Assembly (NCBI RefSeq): GCF_011764585.1
Contig: NZ_AP022853.1
Location: forward strand, 3,381,501-3,445,500
Reading direction: 5' to 3'
DNA: 64,000 nucleotides
From: Sulfurimicrobium lacus
GTDB lineage: Bacteria; Pseudomonadota; Gammaproteobacteria; Burkholderiales; Sulfuricellaceae
Of the stretch, positions 7,402 to 60,565 are shown piece after piece (positions within the stretch are counted from its first letter, which is position 1; every line of letters begins with the position of its first letter). The translations under genes were made by a program, and so were the position numbers. The notes beneath the pieces were generated by a model. The model saw only the letters and a list, made by a program, of their open reading frames with translations. It did no database searches and was not told where the DNA came from.

Positions 7402-10310
7402 CTCACCTCTGTCGCCTGCGTTCCAATCTCCTTGACCTTCTGCCGCCACATATTTCTTAACGCTTCTTCCAAGTTCCGCGCAAAAAGTGGTGCGTCAAAG
7501 AGTGGCGATGCCAGCACTTTTTTGCGCAATTCCAAACGCAGACGCGCCAAACATTCAAGATCCACGGCGTGAGTCAACGCCCGGGCTACGTAACTCTCCT
7601 TATCGTAAGCTATCCAATCCCCCAATCCGGCGCAAGCCAGCAGACTGGCACCTTGGCGGGCGAGCAAAGTGTCCCCGGCAAGCGTTATCGTTGGCACCCC
7701 CATCCATAAAGCCTCGCAAGTAGTCGTACCGCCAGGATAAGGGAAGGTATCCAGAATGATATCGACATCAGCATGTGCCGCCAGGTAATCCGTCCTGGGA
7801 ACCGCTCCCTGAATCGTTACACGCATGGGATCAATCCCCACTTGGGCCAACCGTTGGAGCAATTGATCACGGACAGCCGGTGAGCGCACTTCGTTGTTTT
7901 GAAGCCGCAGCCTGGCTTGAGGTAACGCAGAGAAAATCCGTCCCCACAATGCGAGAACGTCATCATTGATCTTGCTCGTCCTCTGGAAACAGCCAAAAGT
8001 GACATAGCCATTGCGCGTGGCCGGCAAGGGCGTCGGCTCAGAATTTGCGCCTGTTGTTGGAGCAGTAAAACATAGGCGGGTATCCGGCAGATACCACACC
8101 GTCTCGGTAAAGTGACGGCGGTGAGATTCCGGAACCGATATGGGATCCGCCAACAGGTAGTCCATCCCGGGCACTCCAGTGCTGGCGAAATAGCCCAGCC
8201 AACTCACTTGCACTGGGGCTGGTTTCCAGGCAAAAATCGGCAGGCGATTCTTGGCTGTGTGTCCTGCCAGGTCGATAAGAATATGAAGGCCATCGCTGTG
8301 AATTTTTCTGGCAGCGACTTCGTCGCTCAGCCCCACAATGGGAGACCATGCGTTAAACCGGGATTTGATGCGCGCAGTAAGTTCGTCCTCTTCAGGCTGT
8401 GTAGGATATGCCACCAATTCCACTCGGTCTGGATTCAAGTGCGAAAGAATGCTTTCCAAAAAGAAACCTACTGGATGACGCCTCAAGTCTCCTGATACAA
8501 AACCAACCCGCAACGGCCGCGCATCGACATCAATCGGATTGACCAACCAGCGTGAATAGGGCTTAGCCCGAGCCAACACTTTACTTCCATAAAGCCGGGC
8601 CTCAGCCAAATACTGATCTGGCGAACACCCAGAATAGAAACTCAAGCTAAACAGCAGGTTGCCGCGGACCTGCGGATGTTCTGGGTTAAGTGACAGAGCG
8701 TGACGATAGCACGCAATCGCCTCGTCCAGATCACCTTGCGCCTGAAGAGTGTGCCCCAGATTGTTATGTGCTTCGACATAATCCGGTCTGAGCGATATTG
8801 CCCGGTGATAACTCTGAATCGCCTCATCCTGCCTGCCTTGTTCCTGGAGTGCGTTCCCCAGGTTATTGTGAGTCTCGGCCATATTTGGCGTGAGAACGAT
8901 CGCGCGCTGGTAGCACTCGATCGCCTCATTCAATTTGCCTTGCACCTGAAGTGCATGACCCAAATTCGCATGGGATATAGCCAGATCTGGCTTTAGCGAG
9001 AGGACATGCCGATAATGCCAGACCGCCTCGTCCCACTTGCCCTGGAGACGGAGCGCATAGCCCAGATATTCATGCACAACAACGCTATCCGGATTCTGCG
9101 ACAATAACTGTCGGTATCGCGCGATCTCCTCGTCCAGCCTGCCTTGCTCCTGAAGCAACCCAATGAGGTTACGATACGCCTCGGGGAAATCCGGCTTGAG
9201 CGATAGCGTCTTGTGGTAACTTTCAACCGCCTCGTCCAGTTTGCCTTGTTCCTGGAGGGCATATCCCAGGTTATTATGTATTTCGGGAAAATCTGGCTTT
9301 AACAGAAGCGCTTGGCGATACTGTTCGATCGCCTCGTCCAACTTGCCCTGCCTGTGAAGGGTGTGCCCAAGGTTGCCACGTACCGCAGGATCGTTCGGCT
9401 TAAGCGAGAGCGCATGACGATAATGGTCAACTGCCTCATCCAGTTTGCCTTGCGCCTGAAGAACACTTATCAGGTTAAAGTGAGCCTCCGCAAATTGCGG
9501 TTGCAGTGTTAGCGCATGACGATAATTATCAACTGCGTCGTCTAGCCTATCTTGCGCCTGAAGCGCACTCCCAAGATTGTTATAGACCTCAGCGTAATCC
9601 GGCTGAAGGGTTAGTGCATGGCGATAATGCGCAATCGCATCATCTAGTTTCCCTTGGGCCTGAAATACATGCCCAAGATTGCAGTGTGCCTCAACATGTT
9701 CCGGCTGAAGGGACAATGTTTTCAAAAAACAGTCGATTGCCTGGTCACGTTTTGTGTCTTTGACATATAGCGTTCCGAGATAATAGTGAAACTCTGCGTT
9801 ATCTGGATTAAGCGCGACGCCTTTTCTGATTATGTCCTCGGCTTGTTGATATTGCCCGTTCTGGAAGAGCGCATAAAATAACTCACCATAAACCATCTCA
9901 AAACCAGGCTTGAGTTCAATGGCCTTGCTGAAATTTACTATCGCCCCGTTCAGATTGCCTTGTTCCTGCAGGACAGTCGCTAGCAGGTAGTATGCGTCTT
10001 CCATCTCCTGGTTTATTGAAATGGCCTGCTTGAGGTAATGCTCCGCTTCCGCGAAAAGCTTCTGTTCCTTTGATACAAACCCCAGGTTGAGGAAACTTTC
10101 GGCATCACCGGGATTGATCGCAACTGCCCGCCGGTAACATTCTGCCGCCTCTTCGATCTGGCCTTGGGCGAGATACGCATTGCCCTGTTTTTTATGGACA
10201 GCGCTCTCATTCTGCAAGCCGCGCGCCGACGAATCATTGCTTGGTCCCGCCGCAGGCGCATCAGCTGATTTTTCAGGTGCGGGCAAAACCTTCTTGAGCC
10301 AGTTAAACAT
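7398..10310 (-). CDS. TPR-repeat protein with O-GlcNAc-transferase-like (GT41/SPINDLY) domain, long form
   Basis: 970 residues. After an N-terminal MFNWLKKVLP and a low-complexity stretch, about fifteen 34-residue TPR units run to about residue 555, with very regular motifs of the NLGxALQxQGKLDEAxxxYRxALxLxPD type. The C-terminal GT-B catalytic region contains LRVGFVSGDLRRHPVG, LIDLAGHTAKNRLPIFAWKPAPVQVSWLGYFASTG and DIILDTFPYPGGTTTCEALWMGVPT, hallmarks of OGT/SPINDLY-type transferases that glycosylate Ser/Thr on proteins. ATG 10310 is used because the ORF upstream of it only shadows the next gene; its start overlaps the upstream paralogue's stop by 8 bases (translational coupling). Targets are unknown; pili or surface proteins are plausible. 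Confidence 0.9.
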   Translation of the reverse strand: MFNWLKKVLPAPEKSADAPAAGPSNDSSARGLQNESAVHKKQGNAYLAQGQIEEAAECYRRAVAINPGDAESFLNLGFVSKEQKLFAEAEHYLKQAISINQEMEDAYYLLATVLQEQGNLNGAIVNFSKAIELKPGFEMVYGELFYALFQNGQYQQAEDIIRKGVALNPDNAEFHYYLGTLYVKDTKRDQAIDCFLKTLSLQPEHVEAHCNLGHVFQAQGKLDDAIAHYRHALTLQPDYAEVYNNLGSALQAQDRLDDAVDNYRHALTLQPQFAEAHFNLISVLQAQGKLDEAVDHYRHALSLKPNDPAVRGNLGHTLHRQGKLDEAIEQYRQALLLKPDFPEIHNNLGYALQEQGKLDEAVESYHKTLSLKPDFPEAYRNLIGLLQEQGRLDEEIARYRQLLSQNPDSVVVHEYLGYALRLQGKWDEAVWHYRHVLSLKPDLAISHANLGHALQVQGKLNEAIECYQRAIVLTPNMAETHNNLGNALQEQGRQDEAIQSYHRAISLRPDYVEAHNNLGHTLQAQGDLDEAIACYRHALSLNPEHPQVRGNLLFSLSFYSGCSPDQYLAEARLYGSKVLARAKPYSRWLVNPIDVDARPLRVGFVSGDLRRHPVGFFLESILSHLNPDRVELVAYPTQPEEDELTARIKSRFNAWSPIVGLSDEVAARKIHSDGLHILIDLAGHTAKNRLPIFAWKPAPVQVSWLGYFASTGVPGMDYLLADPISVPESHRRHFTETVWYLPDTRLCFTAPTTGANSEPTPLPATRNGYVTFGCFQRTSKINDDVLALWGRIFSALPQARLRLQNNEVRSPAVRDQLLQRLAQVGIDPMRVTIQGAVPRTDYLAAHADVDIILDTFPYPGGTTTCEALWMGVPTITLAGDTLLARQGASLLACAGLGDWIAYDKESYVARALTHAVDLECLARLRLELRKKVLASPLFDAPLFARNLEEALRNMWRQKVKEIGTQATEVS
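8640..10200 (-). repeat. Coding tandem repeat: about fifteen 102-bp TPR units
   Basis: Imperfect 102-base units inside the TPR/OGT gene share segments such as GCCTCGTCCAG and TTGCCTTG (plus strand). Several units are similar enough at the DNA level to allow slippage or recombination, so the number of units may vary between strains. Confidence 0.75.
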
Positions 10311-12213
10311 TATGTTCCCACGAATTAAGTGCATGGGAATGCTGCCACATGCCGTGCAGCGCATCTTCCAGATGCTGCGCAAAACGGCGCGCGTCAAAGA
10401 GAGGCGAGGCGAGTATCTGCTCGCGCAAGCCTGAGCGCAGTTGCGCCAACCGGCTGACGTCGGCCGCGTGGAACAAGGCACGCGCAACGTATTCCTCCTC
10501 GTTGCTGGCGATCCATTCCTCCAGCCCCGCGCAAGCCAACATGCTCGCGCCTTGACGAGCAAGCATGGTATTTCCGGCAAGCGTCAGTGTGGGCACACCC
10601 ATCCACAAGGCTTCGCAGGTAGTCGTCCCGCCAGGATATGGAAAAGTGTCGAGGATAATATCCACTTCAGCGTGCGCCGCCAGATAATTCTCCCTAGGCA
10701 TTGGACCTTCTATGACCACCCTGTGCTGGGCAATCCCAGCTTGAGCAAGGCGGCGCAGCATTTGCTCGCATGCGGCCGGGCAATCCATTTGCTTGCTTTG
10801 CAGCCGCAGCCGGGCCTGAGGCAAGGAGTGGAAAATCCTTGCCCATAAGCCCAGCACTTCATCATTGATCTTGCTCACATTCTGGAAGCAGCCAAATGTG
10901 ATAAAACCCTTTCGCACAGACGGAGGAAGCATCGGAGTCAGCGCAGCACTCGACTCGGGCGGCGTGAAACACAAGCGGGTATCCGGCAAATACCACACCG
11001 TTTCTGTGAACTGCTCCCGCTGAGACTCTGGTACCGATATGGGATCTGCCAGCAGATAATCCATGCCGGGCACCCCGGTACTGGCGAAATAGCCCAGCCA
11101 GTTCACTTGTACAGGAGCAGGCTTCCACGCGAATACCGGCAAGCGGTGGTGGGTCGTATGCCCTGCAAGATCAACGAGAATATGGATACCATCCGAGTGG
11201 ATTTTCTGCGCTGCGGCTTCGTCATTCAGTCCGGCGACAGAGTTCCAGGCGGAGAAATAAGGCTTGATGCGTGAGGTAAGATCATCTTCCTGCGGCTGCG
11301 TGGGATAGGCCACCAGTTCGATCCGGGAAGGATTCAAATGCGCGAGAATGCTTTCCAGAAAATATCCTACCGGGTGGCCCATCAGGTCACCGGAAACCAA
11401 ACCAACCCGTAAGCGTCGGCCGTTTGTTGGGCAAGCAGGCCAGCTTGCGTAAGGCTTGGCTTGAGACAGCACTTCACTGCCATAGTGCTTGGCATCCGCA
11501 AGGTATTGGGCGGGTGAATTTCGAGGATAATAATTTTGAAGAAAAAGCAGGCTGCTCTTTGATCCGACCGCGACAGACTCGGAGTCAAGCGACACGGCCT
11601 TCCGATAACAGTCTATGGCCTCATCTATTTTGCCCTGCTCGATGAATGCCTTCCCCATATTTGAGTACACGACAGCATATTCCGGATCAACTGACAGCGA
11701 TTTCCTGTAGCAAGCGATCGCCTTGTCAAACTTCTTCTCGTGAACGTAAAGGTTCCCCAGGTAACAGTGGAACTCGGCTGATTCCGGATTAAGAGAAAGC
11801 CCTTGTTTAATGACGCTCTTGGCGCTTTCATTTTGTCCGCTTTCAAAAAGCACCTGACACAAGTCACGGTAAACAATCTCAAAGTCTGGTTTGAGCTCAA
11901 GGGTTTTATTGTAATTTTCAGCAGCACCAGCCAGATTTCCACGTTCCTGTGAAAGCGCGCCTAACAGGTAGAATGCATCCTCCAGTTCTGGATTTATTAG
12001 AACCGCCTGCTTGAGACAAGCTTCTGCCTCAGCATAAAGCCCCTGTTCCTTTAGAACAAAACCTAAGTTGAGGAAACCTTCGGCATACTGTGGATTGACA
12101 GCAACCGCTTGCCGGTAACATTCCGCAGCGTCTTGCAATCGACCCTGGGCCAAAAACTCATTCCCGCGCTTCTTGCAAGCCACACTTTCAGTATTCAACG
12201 GATCAGTTTGCAT
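10303..12213 (-). CDS. TPR-repeat protein with O-GlcNAc-transferase-like domain, short form
   Basis: A 636-residue paralogue of the neighbouring 970-residue protein. About six TPR units (residues 1-210) precede the same GT41-like domain, including LRVGLVSGDLMGHPVGYFLE, LVDLAGHTTHHRLPVFAWKPAPVQVNWLGYFASTG and DIILDTFPYPGGTTTCEALWMGVPT. The catalytic halves are close in sequence and the difference lies mostly in TPR number, which sets substrate binding in OGT-type enzymes. ATG 12213 is preferred to TTG 12216. It follows a methyltransferase by 6 bases and overlaps the next gene by 8, so the three form one minus-strand operon. Confidence 0.9.
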   Translation of the reverse strand: MQTDPLNTESVACKKRGNEFLAQGRLQDAAECYRQAVAVNPQYAEGFLNLGFVLKEQGLYAEAEACLKQAVLINPELEDAFYLLGALSQERGNLAGAAENYNKTLELKPDFEIVYRDLCQVLFESGQNESAKSVIKQGLSLNPESAEFHCYLGNLYVHEKKFDKAIACYRKSLSVDPEYAVVYSNMGKAFIEQGKIDEAIDCYRKAVSLDSESVAVGSKSSLLFLQNYYPRNSPAQYLADAKHYGSEVLSQAKPYASWPACPTNGRRLRVGLVSGDLMGHPVGYFLESILAHLNPSRIELVAYPTQPQEDDLTSRIKPYFSAWNSVAGLNDEAAAQKIHSDGIHILVDLAGHTTHHRLPVFAWKPAPVQVNWLGYFASTGVPGMDYLLADPISVPESQREQFTETVWYLPDTRLCFTPPESSAALTPMLPPSVRKGFITFGCFQNVSKINDEVLGLWARIFHSLPQARLRLQSKQMDCPAACEQMLRRLAQAGIAQHRVVIEGPMPRENYLAAHAEVDIILDTFPYPGGTTTCEALWMGVPTLTLAGNTMLARQGASMLACAGLEEWIASNEEEYVARALFHAADVSRLAQLRSGLREQILASPLFDARRFAQHLEDALHGMWQHSHALNSWEHNV

Positions 12214-12219
12214 CAACGA

Positions 12220-15632: not shown

Positions 15633-16052
15633 TCATCCGCCCAGAACAATACGTATGGCGGCCGCCACGCCAATGCCAACCAGGATACCGGCAACGATCT
15701 CGGTGCGGGTGTGCCCCATGCGTTCCCGCAGCCTCTCTCGGGCGTTAGATGATGCCACCAGACTGTTAATCGCAACAGCATGCTCGCCCACTTGCCGACG
15801 CAGGCCGCTCGCATCCAGCACGACAACAAACGCCAAGGTGAGCGCCACGCCAAAAGCGGGGTGACCGACGCCCTCCTTTAACGCAATGAGTGCCGCCATG
15901 CTGCTCACGATAGCGCTGTGATTGCTTGGCAGGCCGCCATATCCTATCAATCCAAATGCCAGTTGCTTTCCCTTAATACTGTTGATCAGAAATTTCATCA
16001 TGCCGGCTACGAGCCAAGCGAGAAAGGGGGTGAGTGCGTACGAGAAATCCAT
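15633..16052 (-). CDS. Divergent PAP2-family membrane protein (DUF212); candidate phosphatase of the D-arabinose donor pathway
   Basis: 139 residues, about four membrane segments, with the DUF212 signature GLIGYGGLPSNHSAIVSSMAAL and HTRTEIVAGILVGI near the C-terminus. DUF212 proteins are distant relatives of PAP2 lipid phosphatases. It overlaps or abuts the UbiA-type phosphoribosyltransferase stop (GTGACTATG junction: either GTG 16058 or ATG 16052 could be the start; ATG chosen). In Mycobacterium the DPPR synthase Rv3806c is followed by the PAP2 phosphatase Rv3807c, so a role in removing the 5-phosphate from polyprenyl-phosphoribose phosphate is a reasonable inference. Confidence 0.78.
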   Translation of the reverse strand: MDFSYALTPFLAWLVAGMMKFLINSIKGKQLAFGLIGYGGLPSNHSAIVSSMAALIALKEGVGHPAFGVALTLAFVVVLDASGLRRQVGEHAVAINSLVASSNARERLRERMGHTRTEIVAGILVGIGVAAAIRIVLGG

Positions 16053-16054
16053 AG

Positions 16055-16939
16055 TCACCCCTGCACCGGTCTAAGCGCCCAGCCACAGGCCACTACCCAG
16101 ATAACAATCGTCAACAGCAACTGCCAGTCAGCCAGCAGTGCATCTGTTGGAGATTCACCCTCACCCATTTCCTCAACCACATACCAGTACCGAAACAGGC
16201 CAAACAGTACGAGTGGAACCGTGACAACCAACTGAGGCTTGGTCGACATCACGAACATGCTATAGAAAATTAGCGCACCGGTGGCGGACATTTCCGCGTA
16301 ATGATTTACTAACGAAACCGAGTATTGTTCAAGCACTTTTCGGCCCTCAGTACCGCTCTGGATCAGTTCCTGTCGACGCTTCAGAGCTGCAAGATAAAGT
16401 GCCAGGCACAGCGTTGTCACAAACATCCAACCTGACACCGGCACGGCCAGGGCTACCGCGCCGGCATAGACACGCAGGACGAAGCTAATCGCGATGGTAA
16501 AAATATCCACTACTGGTTGGTTCTTCAGCGCAAAGGTGTAAGCGACGTTCAGTGCCATATAGGCAGCGATGACAAGCACTACCTTAGGGGCAACGAACCA
16601 GCCCCAGACCAGGAGGCCATAGAATACGACCAACAGGCCCAACGCCATGGGTATCGAAACGATGCCAGAGGCTAGTGGACGGGTTTTGGACTTTTTAGGG
16701 TGGCGACGATCTTGATCGACGTCATGGATATCATTAACGATGTAGGTTGCCGACGACCCCAGGCAGAAAAGCAGGAAAGCCAAGCATGCATGGCCGACCG
16801 CTCCCAGGTTAAGATACTCGCCAGCGAATACCAAGGGCGCCAAAACAAAACTATTCTTGACCCACTGCTTGGGGCGCATCAGCGCGAGCAGTCCACGTAC
16901 TTGAGATAGAGGCGAACGTATTATCACGTTATCATGCAT
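16055..16939 (-). CDS. Decaprenyl-phosphate phosphoribosyltransferase (UbiA family, DPPR synthase)
   Basis: A 294-residue polytopic UbiA-superfamily prenyltransferase. The first Asp-rich motif is NDIHDVDQD (residues 69-77) followed by RRHPKKSKTRPLASG, very close to the mycobacterial Rv3806c signature; the second Asp-rich region is near residue 132 (VVDIFTIAISFVLRVYAG). It transfers 5-phosphoribose from PRPP to polyprenyl phosphate at the inner membrane, the first step to the D-arabinofuranose donor. It is divergent from gtrA-dprE1-dprE2, with the two predicted start codons touching at 16938-16939, and is coupled to the DUF212 gene downstream. Confidence 0.9.
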   Translation of the reverse strand: MHDNVIIRSPLSQVRGLLALMRPKQWVKNSFVLAPLVFAGEYLNLGAVGHACLAFLLFCLGSSATYIVNDIHDVDQDRRHPKKSKTRPLASGIVSIPMALGLLVVFYGLLVWGWFVAPKVVLVIAAYMALNVAYTFALKNQPVVDIFTIAISFVLRVYAGAVALAVPVSGWMFVTTLCLALYLAALKRRQELIQSGTEGRKVLEQYSVSLVNHYAEMSATGALIFYSMFVMSTKPQLVVTVPLVLFGLFRYWYVVEEMGEGESPTDALLADWQLLLTIVIWVVACGWALRPVQG

Positions 16940-17393
16940 GCAACTTGGTCTTTTTTGTTATTTGAACCTCAGTTTATATTCAAAAGTCTTAGTGAAGCTA
17001 GCAATTACATATGCAATTCTGGCATTTATCGCGACGGTGGCGAATATCGGCGTCCAGGACCTCTTTATTCGCGGCTACAGCGGCGCATTTGATGTCCTGT
17101 TCTCGATGGCAGCAGGCACCGGGATCGGACTCGTCGTCAAGTACATCCTCGACAAACGCTATATCTTTCAATTTCGCGCCGACAATGCTATCCATGACGG
17201 ACAGACCTTCACTCTGTACGCACTAACGGGACTTGCGACCACTGTTGTGTTCTGGGGATTCGAGTTGAGCTTCCATCACGTCTTCGAAACGAAAGAGATG
17301 CGCTACTTCGGTGGCATGATCGGCCTAGCAATCGGCTACGTGACGAAATACCACCTCGATAAGCGTTACGTCTTCCGCACCGGGGGCGCATGA
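16938..17393 (+). CDS. GtrA family membrane protein
   Basis: Up to 151 residues with four membrane segments and two repeats of the GtrA end motif (KYILDKRYIFQF and KYHLDKRYVFRT). GtrA proteins are linked to translocation or presentation of polyprenyl-phosphate sugars; Rv3789, next to dprE1 in mycobacteria, belongs to this family. The start is uncertain: ATG 16938 overlaps the divergent gene's start codon by two bases, which leaves no room for a promoter, and GTG 16992 (VKLAITYAIL) is a reasonable alternative. The stop overlaps the dprE1 start as ATGA. Confidence 0.85.
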   Translation: MQLGLFCYLNLSLYSKVLVKLAITYAILAFIATVANIGVQDLFIRGYSGAFDVLFSMAAGTGIGLVVKYILDKRYIFQFRADNAIHDGQTFTLYALTGLATTVVFWGFELSFHHVFETKEMRYFGGMIGLAIGYVTKYHLDKRYVFRTGGA

Positions 17394-18688
17394 GGCTGGT
17401 TTCCTCTTGGGGACGTCTGAGCGCATGCCCGCATGATGTGCTTGTTCTGAACGACCGCAGTAAGGTTTCCAATGTACTGGCCGGACACCATCCCGGCATC
17501 GCCCACGGCATGGGCCGGAGCTATGGCGACGTCTGTCTGAACCCTGAAGGCGTCCTCTGGAACACCACGGGACTCGATCGCTTTATCCGGTTTGATGAAA
17601 ACACAGGCCGGCTGACATGTGAAGCTGGTGTCCTGCTGCGTGATGTTCAACGACTGGTGATTCCTCGTGGCTGGATACTGCCGGTCACACCCGGGACCCA
17701 GCTAGTAACCGTGGGGGGAGCCATTGCCAACGATGTGCACGGCAAGAATCACCATGTACATGGCACCTTCGGCGATCACGTGAAACTGATCAAGCTTGTG
17801 CGCACCGATGGGGAAATCATCGAGTGCGGCCCACAACTGCGATCCGAATGGTTCGCCGCGACAGTCGGAGGACTGGGACTGACGGGCGTGATTGTGGAAG
17901 TAGAAATTCAGTTGAACCGGGCCGCCGGCCCTTGGCTAGAGACCGAGACGATCCCCTATGCCAATCTGGACGAATTCTTCCAATTGGCAGACGACTCAGA
18001 AGCCGAATGGGAGCACACCGTGTCCTGGATTGACTGCGTCTCGCGGCGAGGGGGGCGCGGCCTTTTCATGCGGGGAACCCCCCGTGGCGACTTTGATCGC
18101 CTTGAGCCCCAGGGCCACAAATTGACCATGCCATTGCTACCGCGAATCTCTCTAGTTAATCGACTATCACTGCCGCCAATCAACATGGCCTATTTTTATT
18201 TCAAAAAGTGGCAGGCTGGCCGCACCGTCACGCATTACGAACCGTTCTTTTATCCGCTCGATAACCTGCTAGAGTGGAACCGAATGTACGGCCCCAAGGG
18301 ATTCTTCCAGTACCAGAGTGTAGTGCCTCGTGAGTTCGGCAAGGACGCGCTCCAGGCCATGCTGGAGCAAATCGCGCGCTCTGGCGATGGCTCTTTCCTC
18401 GCTGTTCTGAAGACATTCGGCAACCGCCCGTCTGTGGGGATGATGAGCTTCCCTCGGCCCGGGGTAACCCTGGCGCTGGACTTCCCCAACAAGGGGGCAC
18501 GAACACTCAAGCTGTTCGAACGATTGGATGCCATCGTGCGCGAAGCCCGCGGGCGCATTTACCTCGCCAAGGATGCTCGCATGCCGCGTGATCTTTTCGA
18601 ATCAGGGTATCCGCGTCTCAACGAGTTTTTAAAATACCGCGACCCAGAAATCGGTTCACAGCTATCACGCCGTTTAATGGGGGCCTAA
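17390..18688 (+). CDS. dprE1: Decaprenylphosphoryl-beta-D-ribose oxidase (DprE1-like, FAD-dependent)
   Basis: 432 residues. A PCMH-type FAD domain includes HGMGRSYGDVCLNPEG and GGAIANDVHGKNHHVHGTFGDHV; the His of DVHGKNHH is the covalent or near-covalent flavin site region. The C-terminal oxidase domain includes FFQYQSVVP and SFPRPGVTLALDFP. It oxidises the 2-OH of polyprenyl-phospho-ribose to the keto intermediate. At the position of mycobacterial Cys387 (the benzothiazinone target) this protein has Ala362. ATG overlaps gtrA (ATGA) and dprE2 follows after one base, the order GtrA-DprE1-DprE2 seen in mycobacteria (Rv3789-3791). Confidence 0.92.
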   Translation: MRLVSSWGRLSACPHDVLVLNDRSKVSNVLAGHHPGIAHGMGRSYGDVCLNPEGVLWNTTGLDRFIRFDENTGRLTCEAGVLLRDVQRLVIPRGWILPVTPGTQLVTVGGAIANDVHGKNHHVHGTFGDHVKLIKLVRTDGEIIECGPQLRSEWFAATVGGLGLTGVIVEVEIQLNRAAGPWLETETIPYANLDEFFQLADDSEAEWEHTVSWIDCVSRRGGRGLFMRGTPRGDFDRLEPQGHKLTMPLLPRISLVNRLSLPPINMAYFYFKKWQAGRTVTHYEPFFYPLDNLLEWNRMYGPKGFFQYQSVVPREFGKDALQAMLEQIARSGDGSFLAVLKTFGNRPSVGMMSFPRPGVTLALDFPNKGARTLKLFERLDAIVREARGRIYLAKDARMPRDLFESGYPRLNEFLKYRDPEIGSQLSRRLMGA

Positions 18689-18689
18689 C

Positions 18690-19442
18690 GTGGAAAATAA
18701 GAAAAGAATCGTCATTATCGGCGCCACTTCGGCAATTGCCGAGCACTGCGCCCGGCTCTGGGTCCAAGGCACAACAGTGGAACTCACGTTGGTAGGGCGT
18801 GACGCAACTCGAACCGAGCGCGTAGCGGCAGATCTGCGTGTAAGAAGCCCACAATCGAATATTCGCGTAGTGCAGGCCGAATTCCTTGATCCGATTGCCA
18901 TACAAACGGTGGTAGACGCCATCGCTGGGCATGGCGCAGTCGACGCCGTTTTGATTGCCCACGGCTCATTGCCAGAGCAGAGCCTTTGCCAAGCTGATCT
19001 CACTACATGCCATGAAGCATTGGACATCAATGGCATTTCACCTGTGCTCTACGCCGAAGCCTTTGCCAAACACATGGCTAAAACAGGCCACGGCACGCTG
19101 GCGCTGATCGGTTCCGTCGCAGGTGACAGGGGGCGCAAATCAAACTACGTGTATGGCGCGGCGAAAGGAATGGTTACGCGATACGCGCAAGGTCTGCAAC
19201 ACCGTTTTGCAGGCACTGCCGTCAAGATTGTGCTGATCAAACCGGGGCCAACGGATACTCCGATGACGGCACACCTGAAAAATCAGGGCGCGAAATTGGC
19301 GCCGGTCGAGGATGTTGCAAAAAAGATTGTGGATGCGGTGGAGCGAGGTCAGGCGGTTGTCTACGTCCCAGGAAAATGGAAACTCATTATGTGGGTGATT
19401 AGACACATTCCCGCAGTCATTTTTAATAAAACAAATTTATAA
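18690..19442 (+). CDS. dprE2: Decaprenylphospho-2-keto-ribose reductase (DprE2-like SDR)
   Basis: A 250-residue short-chain dehydrogenase/reductase: cofactor motif VIIGATSAIAEHCARLW (residues 8-24), active-site YVYGAAKG (Tyr-x3-Lys), and VLIKPGPTDTPMT after the catalytic strand. It reduces the DprE1 product to polyprenyl-phospho-D-arabinofuranose. Start GTG 18690 is one base after the dprE1 stop. The pairing with dprE1 and the GATSxIA cofactor motif separate it from generic SDRs. Confidence 0.9.
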   Translation: MENKKRIVIIGATSAIAEHCARLWVQGTTVELTLVGRDATRTERVAADLRVRSPQSNIRVVQAEFLDPIAIQTVVDAIAGHGAVDAVLIAHGSLPEQSLCQADLTTCHEALDINGISPVLYAEAFAKHMAKTGHGTLALIGSVAGDRGRKSNYVYGAAKGMVTRYAQGLQHRFAGTAVKIVLIKPGPTDTPMTAHLKNQGAKLAPVEDVAKKIVDAVERGQAVVYVPGKWKLIMWVIRHIPAVIFNKTNL

Positions 19443-19463: not shown

Positions 19464-21071
19464 TTATTTGGACTTCGAGACCACCTCTGGCAATGGAAGG
19501 GCGAAAACTTGCACCCCGAAACTCCGGAACTCGGGCAACTCTATAAATGAATTCGCGTTTGCCTTCCGGATCGCTTGTATCGCATTACGCATCTCATTTG
19601 TACTAACCAACAAGACCCCCTGCCCATCCGCCTCTCGGCCCATTTTTGCGAGCATTTCCGCATTCACATTTCCGGGAATGGTCTTCACATTTGCGCCAGT
19701 CAAATGATGTAACAACATAGGCTTGCCATCAAAATATATAGTTTGGCTTGGATAACTTTTTTTCAGCAATTTGAAAAAGTCGTGAAACGCCTGAAATCCG
19801 GGGTTCGCTGTAAAATTGTTGTAATGCACTCCTTCAGACGCCAGAAACATGGGCTCTCCATTTTCAAGCCAGGAACGTAGCGTTTCTTTATACACTGTCA
19901 GGCCATATCCAGCCTGGAAGACAACCCATATCGCTATAGGCAGAAGCACCATCTTGTATTTTTCACTTCTGCCGAGATGTCCCACAATTCCAAGTCCAAA
20001 CAAGAGCAGGAAAGGAAAAGCGACACTCACCAAACGTGTGTCAATTGGATCAAACGCTTTCCATGTACTCAGAAAAACCAGCGCGCCCAAATATGAAACC
20101 AGCCAGACCAAGGGCAGAGTAATCGCGCCTATTTCATACCTATTCTCGACATAAGACCGCTGTTCGGCCTTCCTTATTCTAAAAACATAAATAGCTGCGA
20201 CTACGCTCCCTCCAATTAGCGTGACAAACTGCAACGCATCAAAGTGAAGAAGATGCAAGCCAAACACTTTTCCTAATGCGTGCAAGTTCATCCAGAAAGA
20301 CTGGTCCGAGAGCGCGCGTTGTACTCCGGAAATGGATCCGGTGAGAAGATAATTCCTGACAAAAAGTGGCAACATGGAAAGTAGCATGAGAAGAGACATG
20401 CCGACCACGTACCTCCCCCTCTTGCCTTTTTCCATGCTCAAATAGATTGTCCACAGCAATGGGGGTGCGAAAACAAGGCCGATATACCGTGTATAGCAAG
20501 CAGCGATAAGCGCCAGCACGGCGAAAACAGCGGATACCTGCGCCCTACCCAACTTTACGTCACGCTGCGAAGCAAAATAACCGTGAGCAGCCAATGCATA
20601 GGCCAGCAGCACGAGCGGGACAAACAAGACTTCGCTCCATGCATATGTATACACGGCAAAAACTGGAACCTGCAACATGAGGAACAGGCTTGCCAAAATA
20701 CCGCCAAACACCCCAACAATTTGGGTCGCCAATACAGCAAAAATCAACACCGACAAAGCAAAGAGCAATATCCCAAGATATTTTGCGGCCATTTCCGGGT
20801 CGGCGTCAGTTCCCATAACGCTAGACAATACAACAGGGTATAGAGGTGGCCAGGATGTCATCGGCTTATAAGGGGCGGCCACATCCAAGTCAAAATTAGT
20901 TTCAACGACGCCCAATCCTTGTGAAATATGTTGTGCTACATTTAGGTAATACAACGAGTCTGGCGATGTCGCCGCACCTTTCGGTGTTAGCGTCCATTGA
21001 AATATCACCGCCACAATAACAAGCAGGCAAATAAGCACATATTTGGTTACATTGGATGCTCTATTTAACAT
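19464..21071 (-). CDS. Polytopic membrane glycosyltransferase-like protein (GT39/GT-C type)
   Basis: 535 residues, about ten to twelve membrane segments. The first periplasmic loop has TSPDSLYYLNVAQHISQGLG and later KPMTSWPPLYPVVLS, the Asp-containing pattern of ArnT/PMT-like GT-C enzymes that use polyprenyl-phosphate sugars on the periplasmic side. ATG 21071 follows AAAAGG by about 5 bases and starts a clear signal-anchor; the longer ORF upstream is unlikely. It is convergent with dprE2, so it could use the arabinofuranose donor. Acceptor unknown. Confidence 0.72.
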   Translation of the reverse strand: MLNRASNVTKYVLICLLVIVAVIFQWTLTPKGAATSPDSLYYLNVAQHISQGLGVVETNFDLDVAAPYKPMTSWPPLYPVVLSSVMGTDADPEMAAKYLGILLFALSVLIFAVLATQIVGVFGGILASLFLMLQVPVFAVYTYAWSEVLFVPLVLLAYALAAHGYFASQRDVKLGRAQVSAVFAVLALIAACYTRYIGLVFAPPLLWTIYLSMEKGKRGRYVVGMSLLMLLSMLPLFVRNYLLTGSISGVQRALSDQSFWMNLHALGKVFGLHLLHFDALQFVTLIGGSVVAAIYVFRIRKAEQRSYVENRYEIGAITLPLVWLVSYLGALVFLSTWKAFDPIDTRLVSVAFPFLLLFGLGIVGHLGRSEKYKMVLLPIAIWVVFQAGYGLTVYKETLRSWLENGEPMFLASEGVHYNNFTANPGFQAFHDFFKLLKKSYPSQTIYFDGKPMLLHHLTGANVKTIPGNVNAEMLAKMGREADGQGVLLVSTNEMRNAIQAIRKANANSFIELPEFRSFGVQVFALPLPEVVSKSK

Positions 21072-21161
21072 AAAACCTTTTAAAATGCTGTCTTGACTAA
21101 GAAGTGAGCAACTATATGACAACCGCAGTAATTCAAACAGTCAGTTGGTCAGAATAATCTA

Positions 21162-25345: not shown

Positions 25346-26761
25346 TTACCCTTTCGCCTGGGCATGAAGCGTTTCATCCGTCCATTCGATGCCGTCCTCG
25401 GCCATCAAGGAGATCGTTTCTCCATAGAGGTCCTTGAATCGCTTTTGTCTCGAACTGTCGAGGTCATTCGTGAAAAGCATGAATTTCCTGATCAGATCCA
25501 GGTCGATGCTGTCGCCCTTTTCCTCAAGCTCTCGTGCCAGCGTTTCGGCCATCTGGCGATGGGCATGAACCCGCGTAGAGCCGGCATACACCCTTAGTCG
25601 ATCTATGGCGACACGCCGCGCCTTCGGCGGGAGCACCGAAGCGGCAAGAAAGCGCGGAGACCCAAGCGTATTGAAAATCAGCCTGAGTTTCCGGTCGTCA
25701 CAGAAGCGGAATACATCAGTAATATTTAGCGCATTGTAGATATGAAATGTAGGCAGGACATACCGCCTCACATTCTTCATCTCGGCATATTTGTCCAAGT
25801 GCTTAAGAATATCTGCCCACTTTCCAGGATAGCGGATGTATTCAAAATACTCGCCAATCCCGTCGATGCTGATCGAGAACGAAATTTTCCAAAATTCGGC
25901 TATTTTACTGAACAAGGACGGATCGAAGATTGTTCCATTCGTCGTCAGATTGAGAGCCACACGGTCCGGCATGCCCTTGCTGGCAATGTGGTAGATGACG
26001 GGCGCGAGTTGCCGTGCGACCATTGGTTCTCCGCCGATAATCTGAAGACCGGTGATGTACTCCGGGTGCTCCAGAAGCTCTCCGATCAGAAAATCGTGGT
26101 CTTCATACCAGGGAAGTTTCGAAGGGAATCGACTACGCACAAGGCAGTCTTCAATATCGCTTGGCTTTGGGCTAGCGGTGCCATCACCTCCAGAGCACTT
26201 CCCACCATGGAAGCCGACTTTTTCCCAGAATCTATGGACGGGGTCGGCTGCTATCCTCGAGCTGTATTGGCTAAAGCAGGTTCGACACTTCAGATTGCAG
26301 ACATTGCCCAAGTCCAACTGGTAGTCACGGGGCAATGAGTGACTGTGAAACGAGTCCCTCTCAGTGGCCGACTTTAATTGACGGATGGACTTCCCTTCCA
26401 TCAGGAAGATGTCGTTGGCCTCCATTCGCTTGCTACTGCCGCCACGTTCCTCGACCTCCCAGCATTTGCGGCACCCCTCCACCTTTGCGCCCGACACCAT
26501 CGCGCGGCGAATGGTCCGCATGTCCGCAGAGTTCCAGATGTCGACAAGAGAATGTTCATAGACAGTCAACGGGTTGCCGTGGACATCCTTCAAATGCGGC
26601 CCTTGGCAGCAAAGCTGGACAGATCCGTCAATTTTCAGGTTGAGGTGTTTCCAAGGAAGGACGCAAAGCGAATGCTCATCGTGCCGTGCAGCGCGGATTG
26701 CAGGGAACCTCCGTTGAAGCATGCTGATAGCACGAAATAAATAGCTTCTCAGAAGGGACAT
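25346..26761 (-). CDS. Radical SAM protein with N-terminal SPASM/twitch-like cysteine region
   Basis: 471 residues. The core motif CNLKCRTC (Cys155, Cys159, Cys162) binds the [4Fe-4S] cluster that cleaves SAM, followed by GLQIIGGEPMVARQ and LTTNGTIFD. The N-terminal region has CVLPWKHLNLKIDGSVQLCC (33-52) and GCRKCWEVE (97-103), a SPASM/twitch arrangement placed before rather than after the core. Such proteins (twitch-domain radical SAM) occur in glycan clusters; the substrate is unknown. ATG 26761 coincides with the breakpoint of a decayed methyltransferase copy, so its expression signals may be borrowed. Confidence 0.85.
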   Translation of the reverse strand: MSLLRSYLFRAISMLQRRFPAIRAARHDEHSLCVLPWKHLNLKIDGSVQLCCQGPHLKDVHGNPLTVYEHSLVDIWNSADMRTIRRAMVSGAKVEGCRKCWEVEERGGSSKRMEANDIFLMEGKSIRQLKSATERDSFHSHSLPRDYQLDLGNVCNLKCRTCFSQYSSRIAADPVHRFWEKVGFHGGKCSGGDGTASPKPSDIEDCLVRSRFPSKLPWYEDHDFLIGELLEHPEYITGLQIIGGEPMVARQLAPVIYHIASKGMPDRVALNLTTNGTIFDPSLFSKIAEFWKISFSISIDGIGEYFEYIRYPGKWADILKHLDKYAEMKNVRRYVLPTFHIYNALNITDVFRFCDDRKLRLIFNTLGSPRFLAASVLPPKARRVAIDRLRVYAGSTRVHAHRQMAETLARELEEKGDSIDLDLIRKFMLFTNDLDSSRQKRFKDLYGETISLMAEDGIEWTDETLHAQAKG

Positions 26762-26899
26762 TGGTTGTCTTTCAGCAAACTGGGATTGATGCGGCGAGTA
26801 CTGAACTGAGTTCGAGCACGCGCTTACCGACGCTTACCATATGTACCACCTTGGTGTGGGGCTCACCTTATATTCGTATTTTCGACTTTGATTTGTCAT
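26757..26899 (-). pseudogene. Decayed 5' fragment of a methyltransferase gene
   Basis: Read on the minus strand from ATG 26899, MTNQSRKYEYKV matches the start of the intact methyltransferase at 25269 (MTNQRHKYEYKV). A frameshift follows, then KVVHMVSVGKRVLELSS corresponds to KVIRMVGADKRVLELGS. DNA similarity continues to GTTTGCTGAAAGACAACCAA and stops at the ATG of the radical SAM gene. About 25 bases of the upstream leader are also similar. It is therefore a partial, frameshifted duplicate. The rest of 26900-27004 is AT-rich and probably holds the promoter of the next gene. Confidence 0.8.
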
Positions 26900-27004
26900 G
26901 TTCAATGAATGTAACCTTTCCAATCCCGAACTAGTCGGAGCATGCTTCAGGCGCTCTTAATGATAAACTAATATAATTATCTAACACTAACCCATTACTC
27001 AAAA

Positions 27005-28042
27005 ATGCAAGAGCCATTCACTCAGGACATGTTACTCGCCACATCACCCAATGCAGGCGGTACTTCCTTGATTGCACTTGGTACAGCAACAGTTATCGAC
27101 CAGGAAGATACCACTGGGATATGGATTTCAGAAGGGGGGTTATTCCGCAACGTTATTGCAAGCATTCCAGACGACGAAACCCCACATAAGAGAACCATGC
27201 AATTGCAGTCCTTCTCCTCCGTGTCCGGGAAAAAGGTTCTGATGGAAGATGAACAATTCGATTTTCACGACATTTTATATCATGAAAACCGGTTATATCT
27301 GGTTTCCACTGGGACAAATGAAGTTATCACCCTCACGAAGGAGGGCGCAGAAATAAAACGCTACTCATATCCCGGTCACAATGACTCGTGGCACATTAAC
27401 TGTTTGGGGATTTGGGATGGAAGGGTGGTTGTATCAGCATTCGGGGAATTCGACTCGATGCGCGGCTATAAGCATAACAGCACTCATCGAGGTTTCATTA
27501 TGGACCTTGAAAGTGGTCAGAAATTATGGGAGGGTCTCTCTCAGCCCCACACACCAGTGCAGCGTAGCGACAAATATTACGTTTGCAACTCAGAATCCAA
27601 ACAAGTGCTGATTAAGGATCGCTCTGGCAATGTCCAATGCCTCCAATTTGATAGTTATACGCGCGGTCTCGCGTTTGGTAAGGAGTTCATGTACGTTGGC
27701 CTAAGTCAATCAAGAAACGTGGAACATGCCACTGATGGTCCATCAACAGCGCGCATTGTTGCGGTAAACATTTTGACTAACCAGATTTGTGGGGAAATTT
27801 CCCTTCCGTACCTCGAAATCTACGATGTCCGGATTGTCCAGAATGAACATTATTTCGTGCTACCGATGATGTTAGGACTTAATGGAGAAGATCTCAGAAA
27901 GAGGTTGCATGAGTGCTCCTGCAAAGCAGCAGGACTAGCAGCGGGACTCAATCGAATAAAATCCCACATCATTACAGGGAGTATTATTCGCCTCGTGAGC
28001 CGACTAAAAAAGGACAACACATTCGCCAATCCTTCCTGTTAA
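27005..28042 (+). CDS. DUF4915 / TIGR03032-type protein
   Basis: 345 residues with repeated beta-propeller-like blades. HDILYHENRLYLVSTGTNEV, SWHINCLGIWDGRVVVSAFGEF and EGLSQPHTPVQ match the DUF4915 pattern (HDI, HLNxLA, SAFG, GLSxPHSP). The family has no established activity; it is often found with TPR/glycosyltransferase genes. No signal peptide. Base composition is clearly more AT-rich than the housekeeping genes, suggesting acquisition. It stands alone on the plus strand between the methyltransferase relic and the ABC exporter. Confidence 0.75.
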   Translation: MQEPFTQDMLLATSPNAGGTSLIALGTATVIDQEDTTGIWISEGGLFRNVIASIPDDETPHKRTMQLQSFSSVSGKKVLMEDEQFDFHDILYHENRLYLVSTGTNEVITLTKEGAEIKRYSYPGHNDSWHINCLGIWDGRVVVSAFGEFDSMRGYKHNSTHRGFIMDLESGQKLWEGLSQPHTPVQRSDKYYVCNSESKQVLIKDRSGNVQCLQFDSYTRGLAFGKEFMYVGLSQSRNVEHATDGPSTARIVAVNILTNQICGEISLPYLEIYDVRIVQNEHYFVLPMMLGLNGEDLRKRLHECSCKAAGLAAGLNRIKSHIITGSIIRLVSRLKKDNTFANPSC

Positions 28043-28216: not shown

Positions 28217-29446
28217 CTAATAATGCACCCCGCATAGCACCCATTCCGGTTTTAGATCAAGCAACCGCGGAGGTCGGTCAAATTCACGCGAATCCGCTAT
28301 TACAAGAAAAGGGCATAGCCCCTCGCCTGCAAACACAATCCTGAAAGTCTTGTCCCGTATCACAAAACGGATGAAATATCGACCAGGCGCCAATGGAAAC
28401 TGATCCAGCAGGTATTCTACAAGGTGCTCACCCGGCTCTAGTCGGATCGGAACACCTAGTTCGGCTGTCGTTGACGAACTCAGAAATTGCATATCTACGG
28501 CTTGGGTTCCTACAATAAGCTCGGGCTGAGTCAACGACACAAACAGCCTGAACCGAATTCTGACTCGCAAAGGATCGCCGGGACATATCTCCTGAATTTC
28601 CTGTCCATTTGAATCCATAATATTGATATTGAGCAATTCAACCTCGCCAGAGCTGTCAATCTTTGCTCGAGACCAACTCGCAGCAGATGAATTTTCGAGT
28701 TTTATTTCCTCATTTGCCTTTTCACAATACAACTGGCAGACATCGTGTGCTGGCCCGTCGGCCATGATTTTTCCGCTCTGCAGGAAAATCGCCCGCGAAC
28801 AAAATCTTTCTACTTGCCGGAGATCATGACTTACCAAGAGAACTACGCGCTGCCTGTCTGACAGCAGTTGACCAAGTCGTTCAAAGCATTTCCTCTGAAA
28901 TGCCATATCGCCAACGGCGAGCGCCTCGTCCACGACGAGAATATCAGGATCCACGTGAATAGCTGTCGCAAATGCCAAGCGCACAAACATACCGCTGGAA
29001 TAGGTTCTTACAGGCTGATCGAGAAATTCACCAATATCTGCAAAAGCGGCGATGTCGGCAAAACGAGAATCCATTTCCTCTTTGCTCAGACCCAAGATAG
29101 TCCCTTGAAAATAGACATTCTCGCGCCCTGTGAACTCGGGATTGAATCCCGCCCCCAACTCGAGTAGTGCCGAAATGCGCCCATTAACCTCCACCGCCCC
29201 CACGGTCGGCTTGAGAATGCCGCAAATGAGCTGCAGCAGAGTGCTTTTACCCGAACCGTTACGACCGATGATACCAACCGTTTCTCCCCTCTTGATTTCA
29301 AAGGAAACGTCCTGCAAGGCAGTAAATTCCCGGTGAAAGCGAACCCGGCCAAAGGTAAGCGCCTGCTTGATGCGGTCGCCGGGGTGGCCGAAGATTCGGT
29401 ATTTTTTTGTGAGGTTTTTGACCGAGATGGCGATATCAGAGGACAT
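28217..29446 (-). CDS. Polysaccharide ABC exporter, ATP-binding subunit (Wzt-like with C-terminal domain)
   Basis: 409 residues from ATG 29446. The nucleotide-binding domain has Walker A GRNGSGKST (residues 61-69), the LELGAGFNPEFTGRENVY segment typical of Wzt/TagH exporters, signature YSSGM and Walker B DILVVDEALAVGD. Residues from about 265 on form a Wzt-C-like beta-sandwich, which in O-antigen exporters reads the modified chain end (often methylated), so the methyltransferases nearby fit. The start overlaps the permease stop by 11 bases. Confidence 0.93.
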   Translation of the reverse strand: MSSDIAISVKNLTKKYRIFGHPGDRIKQALTFGRVRFHREFTALQDVSFEIKRGETVGIIGRNGSGKSTLLQLICGILKPTVGAVEVNGRISALLELGAGFNPEFTGRENVYFQGTILGLSKEEMDSRFADIAAFADIGEFLDQPVRTYSSGMFVRLAFATAIHVDPDILVVDEALAVGDMAFQRKCFERLGQLLSDRQRVVLLVSHDLRQVERFCSRAIFLQSGKIMADGPAHDVCQLYCEKANEEIKLENSSAASWSRAKIDSSGEVELLNINIMDSNGQEIQEICPGDPLRVRIRFRLFVSLTQPELIVGTQAVDMQFLSSSTTAELGVPIRLEPGEHLVEYLLDQFPLAPGRYFIRFVIRDKTFRIVFAGEGLCPFLVIADSREFDRPPRLLDLKPEWVLCGVHY

Positions 29447-30245
29447 CTGCAAATTCCTCGCGGCTGTGCTGAAAGAAGGCATAGCCGAGAATGGCGGTAG
29501 CCAAACCCATGGCCAGAGCAGTAACCCAGGGAGCCCAAGGAATCGACGCTCCCACGGCGGCAGCCCGTCCAGCCTCTATCACCGCACCGAGCGGATTATG
29601 CAAATAAATGGGGCGCAACACTTCGGGCACAGAACTAACCGGGTAGAACACAGGTGACATAAACATCAGCATCTGCACAAATAGCGGCACGATCTGCGTC
29701 ATGTCCTTGATGAACACTCCCCAGGCGGCGAGGAACCAGGAAAAGCCTAGAGCGAGCAGGAGGATGGGAATGAGCAGAAAGGGGAAAAGCAACACCTGTC
29801 CATGCAGGTTTCCAGTCCAAGCCAGCGCCCCCAGCAAAATGGCGAAATTGAATGCGCCATGAACCAGCCCTGCACCGAGGGGAACCAGGGGCAAAATATC
29901 CACCGGGAAGATGATTTTTTTTACATAGCTGGGGTAGCTGCGCACCGCGGAGGGCGCGCGGGAAACAGCTTCGGCAAAAATATTGAATGCGATCAGGCCG
30001 CTATACAGGATCAACCAGAAGGGCAGACCCTCCTGCTGCTGGGGCCAGCGCGCCTGGAAAACTTGACCGAACACAAAGGCGAAAATGCCCAGCATCAATA
30101 GTGGGCTGAGAAAAATCCATAACACGCCGAACATTGCGCCCCGATATCGCAACAGGACATCGCGCTTGATCAACTGCCCGAGGAGGTAGCGGTTGACATA
30201 AAGCGCGGCGACGATTCGGAAAGGGTTGAAATTACCTGCTGCCAT
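29436..30245 (-). CDS. Polysaccharide ABC exporter, permease subunit (Wzm-like)
   Basis: 269 residues, six membrane segments, ABC2 permease family. YRGAMFGVLWIFLSPLLMLGIFAFVF near the N-terminus and KDMTQIVPLFVQMLMFMSPVFYP near the C-terminus are the usual Wzm/TagG signatures. With the overlapping ATPase gene it would export a lipid-linked polysaccharide across the inner membrane. ATG 30245 used; it follows a 24-codon micro-ORF by two bases. Confidence 0.92.
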   Translation of the reverse strand: MAAGNFNPFRIVAALYVNRYLLGQLIKRDVLLRYRGAMFGVLWIFLSPLLMLGIFAFVFGQVFQARWPQQQEGLPFWLILYSGLIAFNIFAEAVSRAPSAVRSYPSYVKKIIFPVDILPLVPLGAGLVHGAFNFAILLGALAWTGNLHGQVLLFPFLLIPILLLALGFSWFLAAWGVFIKDMTQIVPLFVQMLMFMSPVFYPVSSVPEVLRPIYLHNPLGAVIEAGRAAAVGASIPWAPWVTALAMGLATAILGYAFFQHSREEFADVL

Positions 30246-30247
30246 GC

Positions 30248-30322
30248 TCAATCAAAGTAAGGCGATCTAATCGCGAGATGTTGCGCCAGAGTGGCCTGGA
30301 TCATGGTCTCGATGGTAGTCAT
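30248..30322 (-). other. 24-codon micro-ORF ahead of the Wzm-like gene
   Basis: ATG 30322 to TGA 30248 encodes MTTIETMIQATLAQHLAI and six more residues, ending two bases before the permease ATG. The peptide resembles the first helix of an acyl-carrier-type protein, so it may be a relic or a leader peptide. No ribosome-binding site is evident. Elsewhere in 30323-30393 I see nothing. Confidence 0.25.
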
Positions 30323-40430: not shown

Positions 40431-40439
40431 GGATTGACA

Positions 40440-60466: not shown

Positions 60467-60565
60467 CCCGCGCAAACCCTTTCAGGCTACAATTCACCGC
60501 GGAAAAAACAGGCACACATTTTGCTCATTCACACTCAACAATAGATATTGAGGAATCAACACAAA

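Follow-up and report, generated by a model that had tools for sequence, protein, structure and literature searches.

Five neighbouring genes in a 64,000-nt stretch of the Sulfurimicrobium lacus genome (assembly GCF_011764585.1, contig NZ_AP022853.1, forward-strand positions 3,381,501 to 3,445,500; this whole stretch is called the window) very probably make lipid-carried D-arabinofuranose (D-Araf), as judged from their sequences; this sugar is familiar above all from the cell wall of the tuberculosis bacterium. Open reading frame (ORF) calling groups them into two divergent units, with DUF212 and UbiA on the reverse strand and GtrA, DprE1 and DprE2 on the forward strand (lengths in amino acids, aa):

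15633..16058, reverse strand: DUF212 (divergent PAP2) protein, 141 aa (PF02681); alternative ATG start at 16054-16052
16055..16939, reverse strand: UbiA-family polyprenyl-phosphate 5-phosphoribosyltransferase, 294 aa, without HAD domain (NF008978, 8j8j)
16992..17393 (longest frame from 16938), forward strand: GtrA protein, proposed flippase or carrier partner (NF037976, PF04138)
17390..18688, forward strand: DprE1-like FAD oxidase, 432 aa; DprE1 is both its best NCBIfam family and its best solved relative
18690..19442, forward strand: DprE2-like short-chain reductase, 250 aa; best solved relative DprE2

A preliminary description of this stretch had named all five genes, and its positions hold, with ORFs at 15633-16058, 16055-16939, 16938-17393, 17390-18688 and 18690-19442 and a Pfam match for each. 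The tight junctions it reported are also present: GtrA and DprE1 share an ATGA overlap at 17390-17393, and one base separates the DprE1 stop from the GTG start of DprE2. The four-base overlap of DUF212 and UbiA reads GTGA, with an ATG two codons further in. The longest GtrA frame, from 16938, opens beside the UbiA start codon. Because a GtrA relative in another locus (L136) begins with MMKLA, translation of GtrA probably begins at GTG 16992, which would leave ~50 bp between the divergent units.

Profile and solved-structure searches support homology to the Rv3806c-type phosphoribosyltransferase, DprE1 and DprE2, and a GtrA protein is present, in line with the earlier assignments. The UbiA protein matches PF01040 (E 5.6e-21) and scores 214.8 bits against the curated NCBIfam profile for decaprenyl-phosphate phosphoribosyltransferase (NF008978, cut-off 207), staying below two sister profiles (217.8 of 234 and 167 of 474 bits). 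Its closest solved relative is the decaprenyl-phosphate phosphoribosyltransferase 8j8j (E 1.9e-40), and the NDxxDxxxD motif is kept. GtrA reaches 177.3 bits against NF037976 (cut-off 50) and matches PF04138 at E 5.2e-9. The DprE1-like oxidase carries an FAD_binding_4 domain (E 1.6e-19) and is closest to mycobacterial DprE1 among solved structures (E 9.5e-71). Numbered by the printed chain, Y60, H132, K134, Q334, Q336 and K418 of mycobacterial DprE1 are kept, whereas N385 is replaced by T and C387 by A; we take these positions to be active-site residues. The DprE2-like protein, a short-chain dehydrogenase/reductase (SDR), matches adh_short (E 1.5e-24), retains YxxxK and the serine, and has DprE2 as its closest solved relative (E 1.5e-25; next 2.8e-15).

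Two curated cut-offs are missed, which counts against the pathway call. DprE1 is the top NCBIfam family for the oxidase (341.5 bits; next family 60.8) but stays below its equivalog cut-off of 500, and the SDR scores higher with PRK07102, an unnamed SDR family (244.2 bits), than with DprE2 (161.4 bits, cut-off 250), both being below cut-off. The preliminary description had named a better match to another SDR family as a result that would speak against DprE2; in NCBIfam this is what we find, while the best solved relative is still DprE2. These scores and the two exchanged active-site positions could mean that the specificity of DprE1 and DprE2 has shifted, so that the cassette makes polyprenyl-phospho-ribose or another pentofuranose and not D-Araf, and a ribose-to-xylofuranose epimerase, a different SDR, has been published in Citrobacter O2 (PMC11127046). 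We consider such a shift quite improbable, since among solved relatives DprE1 and DprE2 lead all others by a wide margin, and the pair stays together elsewhere. A DprE1 scan of genome contigs gave at least 576 confirmed relatives, the best 80 of which were fetched as loci; L001 and L002, from the window's own genome, stand outside the 80. These loci cover Beta-, Gamma- and Alphaproteobacteria, Desulfovibrio, an Acidobacterium and Actinomycetota, and a DprE2 relative adjoins DprE1 in every one (80/80).

A related cluster in genome G687 also argues against shifted specificity, provided that this genome is that of Pseudomonas aeruginosa PA7, whose D-Araf is published. Harvey et al. (2011) reportedly described the D-Araf genes of Pseudomonas paraeruginosa (P. 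aeruginosa PA7, Pa5196). The G687 genes lie in the same divergent order as those of the window (identities: DUF212 72%, UbiA 67%, GtrA 58%, DprE1 43%, DprE2 42%), and the cluster continues with a 559-aa protein with nine transmembrane (TM) segments. If G687 is PA7, the PA7 cluster is thus like the window in gene set and divergent order, whereas its DprE1 and DprE2 are only 42-43% identical to the window's, and its multi-TM protein is co-directional and by BLAST unrelated to the 552-aa protein of the window described below (E 0.26). The acceptor in the PA7 system is a type IV pilin.

With a gene set like this one, calling the pathway is correct and unremarkable, and the useful part is the evidence for DUF212 as the phosphatase. 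In Gram-negatives the pathway is already published, for group IV pilins of P. aeruginosa, rhizobial Nod factors and O antigens (PMC11127046, PMC12369383, PMC5080398, PMC2443382), and finding it here is no surprise: DprE1/E2 homologues are reported in Araf-containing O-antigen systems, where the P. aeruginosa D-Araf pathway is cited (PMC11127046), and pilins of P. paraeruginosa are reported to carry D-Araf (PMC12369383). The decaprenyl carrier implied by the preliminary description is not supported; by the reasoning of PMC11127046 undecaprenyl phosphate is expected instead, and by this analogy the lipid carrier is probably undecaprenyl.

In the pathway we propose, a five-gene module that moves horizontally would make a membrane-carried D-Araf donor. 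DUF212, as a compact membrane phosphatase of PAP2-like type acting on the cytoplasmic face, would take off the 5-phosphate; DprE1, with FAD, would oxidise C2, and DprE2, with NAD(P)H, would reduce it with inversion to yield polyprenyl-phospho-D-arabinofuranose. GtrA would then help the donor across the membrane, and a GT-C enzyme, possibly the 10-TM protein encoded at 19464-21122, would attach D-Araf to a surface glycan or pilin. We hold this full explanation, from the mobile donor module with DUF212 as 5-phosphatase to GtrA transfer and the GT-C transferase, with good confidence.

In the 80 DprE1 loci, UbiA comes in two kinds. It is HAD-fused in 35 loci, where an N-terminal HAD domain (PF12710 in 35/35) brings the protein to ~470-520 aa (a few frames are longer), and DUF212 occurs in none of these loci (0/35). 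In 40 loci it is unfused, and a HAD domain is found in none of the 39 unfused proteins scanned, a set that includes the window and excludes L052 and L078, where a stop lies inside the UbiA match. Five loci (L017, L030, L037, L047 and L050) have no UbiA and were counted as such. In 21 of the 40 loci with unfused UbiA, DUF212 immediately follows it on the same strand, at a distance of -19 to +176 bp, and a profile search of the 80 loci with a DUF212 alignment returned no copies beyond these 21; all five genes stand together in 17 of the 80. The mutual exclusion of HAD and DUF212 has a Fisher p of 1.3e-7, which is indicative only, as the loci are related. In these loci, then, DUF212 goes with unfused UbiA and not with the HAD-fused kind, and it most likely removes the 5-phosphate of polyprenyl-phospho-ribose, the job of the HAD domain elsewhere.

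In a UbiA tree, from which L078 was left out as too short, the fused and unfused kinds split with full SH-aLRT support and the HAD/no-HAD label needs two changes; the exception is L027, which lacks the HAD domain and falls among the fused kinds. The DprE1 tree, by contrast, requires 12 changes of this label, three of them forced by well-supported branches, which argues that the UbiA front end is exchanged behind closely similar DprE1 proteins. In L003, DprE1 and DprE2 are both 79% identical to the window's, yet UbiA is HAD-fused. The loci seldom contain homologues of other window genes: the commonest, the ABC ATPase at 28217-29482, occurs in 11 of 84 compared loci, and the majority hold none.

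Eleven alphaproteobacterial-type cassettes (L035, L039, L040, L042, L044, L051, L054, L056, L058, L061 and L064) have unfused UbiA without DUF212. DprE1-DprE2-GtrA-UbiA loci are also found in Microbacteriaceae (Subtercola, Leucobacter, Rathayibacter; L069, L072, L073, L076, L078, where the UbiA match holds a stop, and L081), which are actinobacteria that are not known to have mycolic acids.

The association of DUF212 with UbiA extends to wider genome sets. DUF212 is rare in the window's class, being present in 4 of 274 genomes, three of which have it adjoining UbiA; a UbiA relative is present in 66 of the 274. Three genomes in a phylum sample of 398 exceed the DUF212 cut-off: the window's own, G326, where DUF212 adjoins UbiA, and G553, where it does not. 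Both sets combined, the pair is found in 4 of 6 distinct DUF212 genomes. The genus of G326 (25 genomes), read here as Pseudomonas, was examined after the idea of DUF212 as phosphatase had been formed. UbiA is found in 11 of these genomes, unfused in seven and fused in four, and DUF212 stands beside it in all of the former (7/7) and none of the latter (0/4).

A search of 72,556 plasmid records gave DUF212 relatives in five, none of them rhizobial. The best, on a plasmid of Marivivens sp. JLT3646 (NZ_CP018573.1, L141 4258-9417), has a one-base overlap with the best UbiA match; no DprE1 was found in a search of the plasmid only, run without a positive control in that record. An EamA-type protein of 119 aa and a 740-aa 12-TM protein are encoded upstream of UbiA/DUF212, and its gene content makes the plasmid a candidate for a ribofuranose version of the donor system, in which DUF212 would be the phosphatase. 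We also considered DprE1/DprE2, rather than UbiA, as the partner of DUF212, and rejected this on two grounds: the Marivivens plasmid pairs DUF212 with UbiA where no DprE1 was found, and in G136 and G137 DUF212 follows UbiA beside a DprE1 that is only 40-43% identical. DUF212 is a widespread family to which no function has been assigned, and we find it fairly probable that its members in Pseudomonadota include a dedicated, cytoplasm-facing polyprenyl-phospho-ribose 5-phosphatase. This enzyme would be one of at least two solutions, the fused HAD domain being another, that can replace each other before the same DprE1-DprE2 pair, and it would complete a ribofuranose donor where DprE1/DprE2 are missing, as on this plasmid.

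The DUF212 protein itself matches PF02681 at E 7.8e-33 (113.8 bits, cut-off 26.5). K22, P44-S45-N46-H47, R111, R113, H116 and E120 are invariant in 24 of 24 DUF212 proteins, and this order, K ... PSxH ... R-x4-H-x3-acid, is that of PAP2 enzymes. In each protein, again in 24/24, the two loops with the PAP2-like residues hold 7-10 K+R, compared with 0-1 in the remaining segments outside the membrane. Because K and R are concentrated in these loops, the positive-inside rule predicts that they face the cytoplasm, which would place the active site on the same side as phosphoribosyl pyrophosphate and DprE1/DprE2, which lack signal sequences. The Pfam PAP2 profile PF01569 gives 20.4 bits with the window protein, under the cut-off of 27.2, and matches 8 of the 24 DUF212 relatives at E 0.01. 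On this score we do not take DUF212 for an Rv3807c orthologue; the earlier proposal of DUF212 as the pathway phosphatase is supported by genome comparison as far as the role is concerned, and not as orthology to Rv3807c.

Several results weigh against this role. Foldseek of an AlphaFold2 model of DUF212 (pLDDT 82.6) against the PDB gave no match (best E 0.97), a DUF212 profile search of PDB chains gave nothing convincing, and hhalign against one canonical PAP2 returned a probability of 0.6%; the phosphatase claim is based on context and residues, not on fold. DUF212 also turns up in control genomes of Bacillus, Synechococcus, Thermus, Deinobacterium, Thermotoga and Lactococcus, which shows that membership of the family does not by itself point to this pathway. 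Even with the profile search included, 19 of the 40 unfused-UbiA loci lack DUF212; two of these lie on contigs that end within 400 bp of UbiA (L044 and L056), and a PAP2 gene was seen by eye in one of 18 such loci (L072, convergent with UbiA). Among class genomes with a UbiA of at least 57% identity, DUF212 is missing from 5 of 8. A good DUF212 lies ~600 kb from the only UbiA match in G553, a broken one lies 1.1 Mb from UbiA in G125, and G686, counted in the G326 genus among the four genomes with fused UbiA, combines a seemingly intact HAD-UbiA cassette with a UbiA/DUF212 remnant elsewhere. When the HAD/DUF212 exclusion was put to an independent-pair test on the DprE1 tree, only three pairs lay on well-supported branches, which leaves the test without power. 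The G686 remnant (L152 1498-1869) is a 169-aa frame in which a UbiA start (63 aa, 41%) runs into a DUF212 piece (62 aa, 45%).

The loci without DUF212 and the missing PAP2 fold match could be accounted for if a general cellular phosphatase carried out the 5-phosphate step of an otherwise unchanged donor pathway, and DUF212 served UbiA in another way, e.g., by recycling or protecting the polyprenyl carrier. In published genetics this is the step at which the D-Araf donor pathway is left loose: Rv3807c is described as non-essential while the other genes for decaprenyl-phospho-arabinose (DPA) are essential (PMC5964476), deletion of noeN is reported to lower, not abolish, Nod-factor arabinosylation (PMC5080398), and some activity is described as left in HAD-dead ORF15 (PMC11127046). 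However, carrier recycling would not predict that DUF212 and HAD never occur together in the 80 loci nor beside UbiA in the genus of G326, and the PAP2-like residues of DUF212 are invariant. We judge a general phosphatase to be unlikely. DUF212 as 5-phosphatase would, if true, supply a dedicated enzyme for the step that gene deletions have left loose. That DUF212 and HAD did not coincide in the sets examined offers an initial hypothesis on what DUF212 proteins do in these bacteria, and unfused UbiA with DUF212 is a marker for finding pentofuranose donor loci. In the literature we found no published link between DUF212 and the 5-phosphatase step, though Harvey et al. 2011 could contain one.

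Compared with the mycobacterial DPA pathway (Rv3806c, Rv3807c, Rv3790, Rv3791, Rv3789), the window has homologues of the phosphoribosyltransferase, DprE1 and DprE2 and likewise a small transporter-like protein, but it has DUF212, below the PAP2 cut-off, in the place of the phosphatase; the mycobacterial decaprenyl carrier, arabinogalactan and Emb/Aft transferases are not expected or not seen in the window. Kelly et al. 2024 (PMC11127046) describe three-component pentofuranose systems in Citrobacter O1/O2 that have the same outline as the pathway proposed here: a UbiA-type synthase acts first, the 5-phosphate is then removed, and the product is flipped and used by a GT-C transferase, in Citrobacter one of GT136. 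There, the polyprenyl phosphoribose synthase is reported to carry a fused HAD phosphatase domain and to work with a MATE flippase and a GT-C enzyme (PMC11127046), whereas the window has DUF212 and GtrA, the transporter-like gene within the cassette being GtrA and not MATE. In rhizobia, noeCHOP and noeN are reported to act in Nod-factor arabinosylation, with noeN proposed as 5-phosphatase, and the donor logic of noeC(N)HOP is the same as in the window (PMC2443382, PMC5080398). Because no rhizobial record is among the five plasmid matches to DUF212, NoeN is probably not a close DUF212 relative.

The cassette lies in a low-G+C stretch (G+C 0.515 versus 0.588 in the remainder of the window), and none of the 21 other genomes of the window's family has a good UbiA relative (best E 6.6e-5), a distribution that marks it as an accessory acquisition. 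The same two observations would fit a non-expressed relic of a transferred glycan locus, but the five frames are open, the junctions tight and the active-site residues intact, and we regard a relic as very improbable indeed.

Beside the donor module, next to DprE2, lies a candidate for the transferase:

19464..21122, reverse strand: 10-TM protein, 552 aa, candidate arabinofuranosyltransferase by its position beside DprE2

This gene converges on DprE2 with 21 bp between them, and its ten TM segments are called by hydropathy. The protein has no Pfam family at E 0.1 and no PDB match, and its AlphaFold2 model, built from 4 sequences, is unusable (pLDDT 44). Five of the 274 class genomes (its own included) and one of the 22 family genomes (its own) contain it or a relative. 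Across the loci, the ORF within 200 bp after DprE2 encodes a large multi-TM protein (350 aa or longer, 6 TM or more) in 23 of 50 cases (19 on the same strand, 4 convergent), compared with 41 of 457 other ORFs of at least 150 aa; these counts use simple hydropathy and greedy ORFs and leave out the 30 of 80 loci without an ORF start in that interval. A Pfam scan of nine multi-TM slot proteins and the window's 552-aa protein gave a plausible family, PMT_2, only in L028. The impression is of a constant donor module next to a variable multi-TM slot, as if the module travels as a unit while the adjoining multi-TM gene changes, and the window's 10-TM protein is by position a candidate for this slot in convergent orientation.

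A multi-TM family of 570-712 aa, mostly right after DprE2, recurs in several loci (L007 3830, L019 13119, L021 12086, L026 15668, L027 12047, L029 12064, L066 12119) and is possibly an arabinosyltransferase family. Several members share VPxWDMW near the start, and the L027 member, which was scanned, has no Pfam match.

At the end of the low-G+C stretch lies a glycan export pair:

28217..30251, reverse strand: Wzt-like ATPase with Wzt_C and ABC-2 permease (ABC_tran E 1e-24, Wzt_C E 4.3e-11, ABC2_membrane E 3.3e-24)

This pair may belong to the acceptor glycan system. Because two TPR-GT41 proteins, WbsX and the Wzt/Wzm-type exporter surround the cassette, the gene neighbourhood suggests a surface polysaccharide as the D-Araf acceptor. 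The TPR proteins are encoded by two adjacent leftward genes at 7398-12216 and carry Glyco_transf_41 (OGT-like, GT41) domains. A type IV pilin is a possible acceptor as well, since the window encodes a T2SSE-type ATPase, a T2SSF-type membrane protein and a prepilin-like protein (38700-41654 and 60548-61321). At 25346-28042, within the glycan region, a Radical SAM/SPASM protein and a DUF4915 protein are encoded, and a 614-aa protein at 5557-7401, which has no Pfam family and for which hydropathy gives 7 TM, is a second possible GT-C enzyme.

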